From Vitis vinifera (Eukaryota; Streptophyta; Magnoliopsida; Vitales; Vitaceae), in the NCBI RefSeq assembly GCF_030704535.1, contig NC_081823.1, forward strand, positions 2,512,501-2,576,500: a stretch of 64,000 bases of DNA. Reading direction: 5' to 3'. The translations under genes and the position numbers were made by a program. The notes beneath the pieces were generated by a model that ran no database searches, was not told the DNA's origin, and saw only the letters and a list, made by a program, of their open reading frames with translations. Within the stretch, counting starts at the first letter, position 1. Every line of letters starts with the position of its first letter. Below, piece after piece: positions 25,832-29,403 of the stretch.

Positions 25832-26806
25832 ACTATTGTAGACCTCCCCATTTGGGTGCTATTTCATGCAGCTCATTCTGGCCACGTGTCACTCCCGGAT
25901 TAGTCAATATAGGATCAAAATAGTGGAGTTGATGGACCAATTAGGGGAAGACACCTGTAAAGGTGAAGAAGGTTCTAGAAGGAGGATCTGCAGGCCGTTG
26001 TCTTGAGGAGCGGATGAGAGAGAGGAAGTGGGGGCTGCAGAGTAGTGGTGCAGGGGTAGTGGCTGTCTCTGCAGATATGGTTAGAAGGGCAAATCCGGGA
26101 GAAGAAAAAGGTGCTTTTGGAGAGGTTTTCCTTGAGCTGGGAAGGGAGTTTGGGAAAGAAAAAGACAGAGGAAGAAAAAAACACTAGAAAAAAAAAAACA
26201 GAGAGGAAGGAGAAAAAAAAGGAGACAGGAAGGCAGGTTGGGGGGGGGGACGAGTGATAAGGGTGGTTTTAGAAGAGACATCTTGAGGGCCGTTTGAGAG
26301 AGTTCAGGGAGTGCAACTAACTTGGGAAGAGAAGCTTGTTGGTGAAGGAAGAAAAGCAGTGGAAAGCCGTGCTGTGGACTTCCAGGGCCACGGAGTTTGT
26401 TTCGATTGAATATGCTTATTCATGTATGATGCTTTGCTTCATTTCTCTCCTGTGCTCGATTTTCTTTTCTTCTGAAAATGATTGGATCTTCATTGAGTTT
26501 GGTTTGGATGCTTTGATGATTATATTGTGGATTTTTTTTTAACTCATCCCACCAGCTAGCCACTCATTCATCATTCATGAAACGAGATGTTGCTTAGTAA
26601 TTCTTTAATCCATCCATTCTTGCTCTGTTCCTGTTTCTATCCTCTTCTTCCTCTGTTTTCCTTTGAAAGAGACCTTCAAGCTTTAAGACTGAGAATCTGA
26701 GGAGATTGGCTGATGGAGAAAGATAATGATGTGAAGAGGAGTTTGTCGTTTTGGATCCAGGATTTTTCTGTATTTATTTGTCTGCTTCTGGTGCATTTGA
26801 GGAAGT

Positions 26807-27082
26807 TTGTGGCTGTTGAAAAGGCTGTTACGTCTACTATATCTGCTGCTCCAGGTCAGGTTGAGTTGCCTTTTAAGCTCCAGCTTGGGGTTGTTCTCTG
26901 GTCCTGCTCTGATACCATCTCCAGTCCCTGCAATCCAAACTGGCTCTATACAGATGCCTCTCCATCTACATCCCCAAGTCGGTCCATCACTTACCCATAT
27001 ACACCCATCACCGCCTCCTCTCTTCCCGTTTAGTCAACTCAGTCAACTTGGTCTTGTTCCAAGGAACTTGGATCTGCCATAG
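26807..27082 (+). pseudogene. Host-like protein fragment of unknown family inside the solo LTR
   Basis: One frame gives FSGPALIPSPVPAIQTGSIQ, then MPLHLHPQVGPSLTHIHPSP, a Pro/His-rich stretch that reads like a piece of a large host protein; a neighbouring frame gives EKAVTSTISAAPGQVELP, which may be its upstream part. I could not name the family. It lies directly upstream of the ribosomal protein piece in the same orientation. Confidence 0.35.
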
Positions 27083-27189
27083 GACAATGCATTAAAAGAG
27101 GTAAAGTCATTGCCCTTGAGAGTAAGTGCAGACGGTAATGTTATGACAAATCATACCCAGCAGCTGCATCTCCACAACACAGTCTTCCA

Positions 27190-27470
27190 ATGGCTTCAGA
27201 GAAGAAACTCTCAAACCCAATGAGGGACATCAAGGCCCAGAAGCTCGTCCTCAACATCTCCATTGGAGAAAGTGGAGATCGCCTCACCAGAGCCGCTAAG
27301 GTGTTGGAATAACTCAGTGACCAGACCCCTGTTTTCTCTAAAGCAAGATACACTGTTTGATCCTTTGGGATCAGGCGTAATGAGAAGATTGCTTGCTACG
27401 TCACTGTCAAGGGCGAGAAAGCAATGCGGCTTCTTGAGAGTGGTTTGAAGGTCAAGGAATATGAGTTGCT
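27190..27470 (+). pseudogene. Intronless 5' part of 60S ribosomal protein L11 (uL5) inside the solo LTR
   Basis: Starting at an ATG, the sequence matches the first 90 or so residues of plant RPL11: [40 protein letters not shown] (with decay), TPVFSKARYTV, then [20 protein letters not shown] and LKVKEYELL. Introns are absent, so it came from mRNA. The rest of RPL11 is missing and the sequence passes straight into ascorbate peroxidase. It is degenerate and not a functional ribosomal gene. Confidence 0.85.
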
Positions 27471-27911
27471 GTTGAGGTCACTGGAGGGCTTGAAATTCCT
27501 TTCCACCCAGGGAGAGAGGACAAGCCGGAGCCACCACCTGAGGGTCGTCTGCCAGATGCCACCAAAAGATGCGATCACTTGAGATAGGTGTATGCTACCC
27601 AAATGGGTCTCAACGACAAGGACATCGTAGCTTTCTCTGGGGCCCACACCCTGGGAAGGTGCCACAAGGAGCGCTCTGGATTTGAAGGACCTTGGACTTC
27701 CAATCCTCTGATCTTTGATAACAGCTACTTCACGGAACTCCTTGGCGAAGAAAAGGAAGGTCTTCTATAGCTGCCAAGTGATAAAGCTCTTCTCTCAGAC
27801 CCAGCCTTCTGTCCTCTTGTCGAGAAACATGCCGCTAATGAAGATGTCTTCTTTGAGGATTACAAAGAACCCCTTTTGAAACTCTCTGAGCTGGGATTTA
27901 TTTATGCTTAA
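27471..27911 (+). pseudogene. Intronless 3' part of cytosolic ascorbate peroxidase inside the solo LTR
   Basis: Matches the C-terminal half of cytosolic [34 protein letters not shown], then [20 protein letters not shown] with the proximal heme histidine in AHTLGRCH, then [50 protein letters not shown] and a terminal [10 protein letters not shown]. It is joined to the RPL11 piece at about 27470 in a different frame, and no introns remain. Degenerate. It is a retro-copied fragment, not a working antioxidant enzyme. Confidence 0.88.
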
Positions 27912-29403
27912 AAGAAAATTGGGCACAAGGTGATGGAGTTGATAAGTTGCATTTGCTGATTTACCGTTATGTTTTTTTTAGATTCTGGAAGCACTTATGT
28001 GATCTGGGCAGTTTCATGTTGAAGAAGTTGGAGTGATTTTTGCTTGATTTTGTTGACGACATGGACATCTCCAAGGGTGTCGTTTTGAAGTTGTTGTCAA
28101 TAGGGTAGATGCTCACACAGCATCCGAATTGGCAAAGAAGGGCAGTGTTAGTGAAGATTGCAAACCCTGCTAGGAGGAATGAAAGAGACCTCAAGGAGAT
28201 ATAGGTCGAAGCTACTGTTGAGGCAATGAATGAGACAATTTTTGTGACACCTTTGGGACCCGCTTCCTCTTTCCAGCATGGCATGCATGGCCACCTTTGG
28301 TGGGCCACCCCTGAAACTCACGTGGCATACCCCTACATTCCCGTGCATTGTTTTCAAAACAATTGATTTTCAAATAAAATCCTTTTCAAAGGTTTAAATC
28401 CTTCAAGTTTTCTTTCTTTATCTTAAATAAATCCATTTTTTACCCTTTTTCCATTCGTCAAATATCTTTTACTTTTTATTTTTACTTATTTTTATTATTA
28501 TTATTATTATTATCTTCTTTGTCATCATTATTATTTTACCCTTGTTGTTTTTAAAATAATCCCTCAAATCCCAATTTTCAAATAGTTTTCCAATTTTTAA
28601 AATTCTTTAAATAATTTTAACTTCTTAAATTTTTCATCCTTAGACATCTTTTTTTTTTAGGTTCTAAACATCTCATTTTCAATAAAATTTGGCCGCTATT
28701 TTCTTTTTTTGGGCGAGCCACTTTCGAATTTTTCATAATTTTAAAACGTTTTTTTGAAATAAAACATGAATTCAATTTTGTGATTCCAATTAATGGAACT
28801 TATGAAATCTATTCATGCAAAAATAGAAATGGGCTTTGGTGGGGGCCCGACATATGAGATTTTATGATTAATGGATTGTTTGGTTGATTCGGGTGCCATA
28901 CATGATTTATTCTGCTCTATGATATGCATGTGACTATCCCTTAATTGTACACTAATCTCACTTCTTGATAGCGCATTGAAGATCGTTGCCCAGGTACGCA
29001 TCTGTCCTTATTCTGATCTCACTATATGCATGTTTTGATATGTGCATGATTGATTTGAGTATTTATTGATTTCCTCATCATTGCCACATCAGCTTCATTT
29101 TATTAGTAGAGACCCGACTTTAGGGACTTAGAGGGGTGCTACGGTCTTTACCGTACCTTCCCGATAAGTAACCTGACCCCCGAACCCGATCCGGTTTTTC
29201 ACAGACCACCTTTTCCAAAATAAGGAGTCACACTTAGGGTTTTTCTTTCTTATTTTGTTTACCCTTTAAAAATAAAACAAAAATAAGTGGCGGCTCCAAG
29301 TCATTTTCAAATAATCAATAAAAATCATAATTTTTCAAAATAAAAATCGAGCTCGCCATCGAGTGGGAAACGCATTCGAGCAATCGAAAATGCGGGGTCC
29401 ACA

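Follow-up and report, generated by a model that had tools for sequence, protein, structure and literature searches.

How could pieces of several unrelated host transcripts come to lie fused, in a single orientation, within what appears to be one long terminal repeat (LTR)? The question is raised by an element at positions 25837-29403 of a 64,000-nucleotide stretch of the Vitis vinifera genome (C19:2512501-2576500, hereafter the window), which was compared with the 495.6-Mb assembly of 21 contigs; positions within the element are given as el, el 1 being window position 25837. In our judgement the element is very probably the solo LTR of a gag-bearing family with conserved ends and a replaceable middle, rebuilt by a reverse transcriptase jumping between element RNA and packaged host mRNAs.

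The LTR comprises 3567 bp on the plus strand, starts with TGTAGACC and ends with GTCCACA, and its TG...CA termini are bordered on both sides by a perfect 5-bp target-site duplication, ACTAT, at 25832-25836 and 29404-29408 (sequence and blastn). A blastn comparison of the element with the window (E 1e-3, low-complexity filter on) returned the self-match only, with no end-to-end repeat within the LTR. The window copy is accordingly a single LTR between its duplication, without an internal region, and the solo LTR with TG...CA ends, ACTAT on both sides and a single terminus type that a first-pass annotation of this DNA had proposed is confirmed by the sequence and the self-only match.

When positions 25837-26300 were used as a probe against the genome, at least 43 matches were obtained, a lower bound as 40 of the 192 candidates were scored, and several occurred as same-strand pairs approximately 10-20 kb apart. 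The whole element was then aligned to 30 loci, 20 from this probe and 10 from a second one (26300-27150), and it is by this alignment that the 3' end of the window LTR was assessed. The 5' end of the element (first 130-275 bp; 25837-26111) and 3' end (approximately the last 600-850 bp; 28654-29403, most conserved at 29071-29265) sit at opposite termini of long LTRs. Both LTR borders were set at 16 loci, and five two-LTR pairs were recognized, with LTRs of 2762-4740 bp (2.8-4.7 kb) and matching 5-bp duplications in all five (ACTAC, CTAAG, GCTCA, GGTGC and CAAAC). The Kimura two-parameter (K2P) distance between the LTRs of a pair is 0.0014-0.0139, and their middles are likewise near-identical (K2P 0.0134, 0.0127, 0.0092, 0.0097 and 0.0019). 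Each of the five 5' LTRs is followed by primer-binding-like sequence (AAATGGCGACTCC; TGGCGACTCC three bases past the LTR end). Since the ends of the element recur at the termini of the LTRs of long two-LTR elements, the evidence supports their assignment to one LTR family with the cargo inside the LTR, and not between two short LTRs. Neither of the outcomes feared in the first-pass annotation, ends belonging to different families or a cargo between short LTRs, was encountered in the 30-locus alignment or in the five pairs; likewise, the alternative of an internal cargo flanked by short, diverged LTRs was rejected on the lack of an end-to-end repeat and the recurrence of the ends at the termini of long LTRs.

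The loci L022 and L023 were dropped from the pair counts, since each is a 5' LTR and they share one flank, as a tandem duplication would. At C15:5993269-6025578 four LTR matches are found, among them two 5' LTRs approximately 20 kb apart with the same flank and 99.97% identity, which suggests that an entire element was recently duplicated in tandem. From the likeness of its 3' end and primer-binding site, the family may belong to the Ogre/Tat lineage of Ty3/gypsy.

Inside the window LTR four host pieces are fused in a row, all in sense on the plus strand, the strand of the LTR itself. The most upstream (26821-27159, el 985-1323) is a spliced piece of an unnamed gene and matches in two exon blocks its source on the minus strand of C7 (C7:27546440-27546938). 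It is followed by a piece of RPL11 (uL5) mRNA running from the 5' untranslated region (UTR) to codon 94 (27151-27471, el 1315-1635; residues 1-94, E 8.6e-51; gene on C12), by a piece of cytosolic ascorbate peroxidase (APX) mRNA running from residue 103 past the stop into the 3'UTR (27465-28064, el 1629-2228; residues 103-248, E 3.9e-77; gene on C6), and by a trehalose-6-phosphate synthase (TPS) piece of the GT20 family (28051-28241, from el 2215; Pfam 2.4e-10, best PDB match 6.6e-6). The intronless RPL11, cytosolic APX and third host-like piece, in one orientation, that had been noticed beforehand are thus borne out, the third being TPS, and the unnamed-gene piece had been missed. Ten introns of the source genes are missing in total, namely the 168-bp GT-AG intron of the unnamed gene, three of RPL11 and six of APX. 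At the RPL11/APX junction a 7-nt microhomology (GTTGCTG) is common to both partners, as is a 5-nt one (TGTTG) at the APX/TPS junction, and there is no poly(A) between the pieces. Intronless pieces, microhomology and absence of intervening poly(A) are together the expected trace of template-switching reverse transcription of mature mRNAs. A piece of the LTR at L011, compared with a C7 gene, also displays exon-like blocks, but its query is partly unmatched and its borders are unclean, and it stands outside the ten; another part of this LTR middle, approximately 303-728 of the query, has many relatives of 73-79% genome-wide and may represent another repeat or gene family.

These pieces have decayed. 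Premature stops are present at codons 41 and 57 of the RPL11 piece in all three copies of the composite described below, and the APX piece has two in all three copies plus an extra one in the C3 copy. Differences from the source genes are spread evenly over the three codon positions (3, 4 and 3 in RPL11; 9, 9 and 7 in APX), which fits neutral decay. As read from the sequence, the window cargo is decayed and non-coding, and there is no support for its expression as a useful protein; the description gene-carrying fails here, therefore, in its coding sense.

A probe covering the composite (27140-28280), for which all 33 candidates in the genome were scored, located it whole at three loci, namely the window, C3 (99%) and C17 (98%). 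On C17 the copy is again a solo LTR, flanked on either side by CATAC. The C3 copy is flanked by internal sequence on both sides, with a primer-binding-like sequence after it, and neighboring LTR ends reach a similarity to the window element of only about 82-84%, so that it lies in a tandem array; Retrotrans_gag is found in open reading frames (ORFs) of L042 and L039, the internal pieces beside it. The region C3:16279001-16327000 (L029, L039-L042) has the order internal-LTR-internal with more LTR ends nearby, and recombination between elements is probable there. Three more LTRs (L043, L044 and L045) have no more of the composite than the fusion of the APX 3' end with TPS, at approximately 90%. 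Sharing is nested from the 3' side: the window and C3 have el 402-3567 in common, C17 joins at 1154-3567, L043 and L044 from 1993 and L045 from 2144, and other lineages join at approximately el 2717-2975; the window/C3 breakpoint at el 402 falls in a run of G. The earlier expectation that every copy of the family would carry the cargo twice holds in so far as the middle is common to both LTRs in pairs, but the composite itself was found only in two solo LTRs and one LTR of an array, and the cargo varies by lineage.

In order to look beyond this composite, the middles of 14 LTRs, taken from loci found with two probes and not forming a random sample, were translated in three sense frames and compared with Pfam, and the antisense frames were scanned for 11 of them (L026, L038 and L030 being read in sense only). 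The LTR 3' border lies beyond the fetched stretch at L010, L016 and L024, not both borders were set at L031 and L036, and L030 is represented by its own 5' part. At E <= 0.1, 16 of the 42 sense frames of the 14 middles had a match; in the 11 middles read on both strands the ratio was 16/33 in sense versus 1/33 in antisense, the lone antisense match (NAD-GH in L036, E 0.0043) being below its cut-off. Above the Pfam cut-off, matches in these 11 were confined to nine of 33 sense frames, in six LTRs, versus none of 33 antisense frames. The domains concerned are 6PGD and PPR (L012), NFRKB (L011), RMI2 (L017), Arm, HSP70 and tubulin (L036), Arm (L031) and HSP70 and DEAD (L010), although L031 (C14:11.36 Mb) and L036 have the Arm-bearing stretch in common at 95% and do not represent independent captures. 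Matches below the cut-off (EF-Tu, CAND1, LRR, SHMT, FPP, Glu2-Pro, HATPase, RING, MatE, and redoxin and PPR_3 in L012) were too weak to be counted as captures. Three of the five two-LTR pairs, on C2, C8 and C14, have their own host domains above the cut-off in the middle common to both LTRs. The middles of different lineages have only short blocks in common. Window modules also found in other lineages lie at 26238-26660 (el 402-550 in C3 and L038; el 534-824 in L031, L032 and L034-L036) and at 26621-26800 (in L037), and part of the latter recurs elsewhere: a 125-bp segment (26621-26745, el 785-909) is found at many single genomic places at 80-91%. The cargo therefore varies between lineages, and no single cargo is present in every copy of the family.

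Based on these observations, we hypothesize that during minus-strand synthesis the reverse transcriptase would leave the element RNA within the LTR or next to it, copy mature host mRNAs successively, often jumping at a few shared bases, and return to the element RNA near the 5' end of the LTR. The jump may take place in U3, after the first strand transfer, or in R-U5. A cargo found only in sense fits minus-strand synthesis on mRNA, and because reverse transcription duplicates LTR sequence, the patchwork would be placed in both LTRs and inherited by daughter copies. Repetition of this process would have rebuilt the LTR middle again and again across lineages, and at the window locus a later recombination between LTRs would have left a single one. 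The co-packaging of host mRNAs, the exact step of reverse transcription and the formation of the solo LTR by recombination are the parts of this scheme that we infer.

Transcription of the LTR is plausible from sequence comparison, because some LTR middles cleanly lack GT-AG-bordered segments. In three comparisons such a segment distinguishes two relatives, one having it and the other lacking it: C9 versus L017 (85 nt), C16 versus L012 (86 nt) and C3 versus the window (100 nt), the last mapping within the 26238-26660 module, where the window copy lacks it. If these absences are due to splicing, stretches of the LTR would be transcribed and the spliced RNA reverse transcribed. Two further gaps, in C10:25588100-25588700 versus L012 (106 bp) and C10:7846400-7846850 versus L036 (126 bp), do not have plainly GT-AG borders and were left unused.

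Several observations weigh against the reading we prefer. No intact two-LTR element with the RPL11-APX composite was found among the 33 candidates scored. The unnamed gene and RPL11 meet only in an imperfect overlap (el 1315-1323), and the TPS piece is only 85% similar to C10:8200853 in an alignment that skips 318 bp; this skip was rejected as an intron, its borders not being GT-AG, and the donor is uncertain. The identified host pieces cover only approximately el 985-2405, and el 276-984 and 2406-2817 are without an identified origin. In the domain scan, which covered this one LTR family, five of the 14 middles had sub-cut-off matches only and three (L026, L038 and the 5' part of L030) had no Pfam match in the sense frames. 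The 100-nt segment of C3 has a 17-nt imperfect direct repeat at its borders, which would allow a plain deletion instead of splicing. A tblastn search of the internal pieces read, with the pol of another gypsy-type element of the window as query, found no reverse transcriptase, only gag being present; from the gag without detected pol near the C3 copy the family may be partly non-autonomous, and a partner element may supply enzymes, including reverse transcriptase. Finally, module exchange between integrated LTRs could explain part of the mosaic.

This last point leads to the strongest of the other explanations, in which modules captured once, long ago, have since been rearranged among integrated LTRs through gene conversion or ectopic recombination, with no continuing capture by reverse transcriptase. 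The differing combinations of modules among lineages are in its favor, as is the C3 copy, located in a tandem array such as recombination would make; however, the loss of ten introns, the microhomology fusions of unrelated host mRNAs and the number of different host genes are left unexplained, and we consider it unlikely as a full account, even if recombination of this kind probably helps to shuffle the modules and contributes to the mosaic. Intronless sense pieces would also be produced if a chimeric processed pseudogene made by the machinery of long interspersed nuclear elements (LINEs) had entered an existing LTR after its integration and been amplified with it. Nevertheless, poly(A) tails are absent between the pieces, no duplication surrounds the cargo among the 20 largest of the 50 direct-repeat families listed, and the above-cut-off matches are all in sense in the 11 middles scanned on both strands, where insertion in random orientation predicts otherwise, and this explanation appears very improbable. 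Even less credible, to the point of being nearly negligible, is the capture of gene fragments by an element nested in the LTR, either a Helitron or a DNA transposon; such elements often carry several fused gene fragments, but capture from genomic DNA would keep introns, of which ten are absent, and the outer ends are LTR ends common to two-LTR elements.

Rebuilding of the LTR middle by template switching onto host mRNAs is thus the reading that we retain, and its interest lies in the recurrence of the phenomenon: recognizable host pieces are found in six of the 14 middles scanned, all in the same orientation, and the middle is copied into both LTRs of pairs, so that a single genome would provide several datable capture events. 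In such a family it can be tested at which step of reverse transcription capture takes place, which mRNAs are packaged and whether the turnover of LTRs has a bearing on silencing. A more speculative proposal, to which we would give somewhat less than an even chance, is that the LTR middle is a standing write zone that each lineage goes on overwriting with sequence from abundant host mRNAs, the LTRs of the family thereby amounting to a continuous archive of host transcripts. The element could benefit from this turnover if its leader or regulatory sequence were renewed too fast for sequence-based silencing to keep up. The family also serves as a warning, as housekeeping genes and repeats may be mixed up in the LTR libraries and gene annotation of such plants.

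The neighborhood of the LTR in the window includes a distinct gypsy-type element (31008-41000, minus strand), whose gag and pol ORFs lie at 37982-40357, 36722-37978 and 35027-36718. One 28-bp tandem repeat occurs close to each of its ends (31008 and 40670), which we infer to be its LTRs; no blastn match was found between this element and the window LTR. The tblastn search mentioned above also returned two weak partial pol matches flanking the C2 element (L012 5-166 and L013 4924-5052), which are antisense to it, and the C2 element may sit inside an older gypsy element. By resemblance, we take the minus-strand feature at 7813-11019 to be a leucine-rich-repeat receptor kinase, the plus-strand stretch at 41005-49602 to hold several pieces of MATE-like transporters and that at 62202-62648 (plus strand) to be a RALF-like peptide precursor.

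In the accessible portions of the open-access literature no report of host-mRNA mosaics inside LTRs was found, and an exact pattern search in viral contigs returned no matches. As far as the available text of these sources goes, earlier work describes host mRNA capture as single cases or as genes borne by elements, and not as LTR content. Several related systems may be compared. Bs1 of maize is described as an LTR retroelement with segments of three different host genes (PMC13317346). The family reported here resembles it in that several host-gene segments are found in an LTR retroelement. The host segments of Bs1, however, reportedly are internal, between the LTRs, whereas the window cargo lies within the LTR, outside a Bs1-type internal position, and sets differ by lineage. 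In BARE-2 of barley, template switching is described as having put foreign sequence into the LTR, the donor being the Wis-2 retrotransposon, and in the Veju terminal-repeat retrotransposons in miniature (TRIMs) of wheat the donor was an unknown sequence (PMC13317346, PMC1950507). Foreign sequence was thus gained by template switching in both, and in BARE-2 into the LTR itself, but in the family reported here host mRNAs served as donors, several of them in succession and in several lineages. Genes captured by LTR retrotransposons have been surveyed in rice and sorghum at genome scale, by full-length elements (Jiang and Ramachandran, PMC3726574); host genes are likewise carried there, but the accessible part of that paper makes no mention of cargo inside LTRs or of mosaics of several mRNAs (PMC3726574). 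Likewise, abnormal template switching between co-packaged RNAs has been put forward for complex elements of the Triticeae (Sabot and Schulman, PMC1950507), a mechanism akin to the one hypothesized here, although in the text available two element copies are fused into a three-LTR structure and no host mRNA is named (PMC1950507). Host mRNA capture by template switching is therefore already known; what is new is capture into the LTR, of several mRNAs, and in several lineages of one family.

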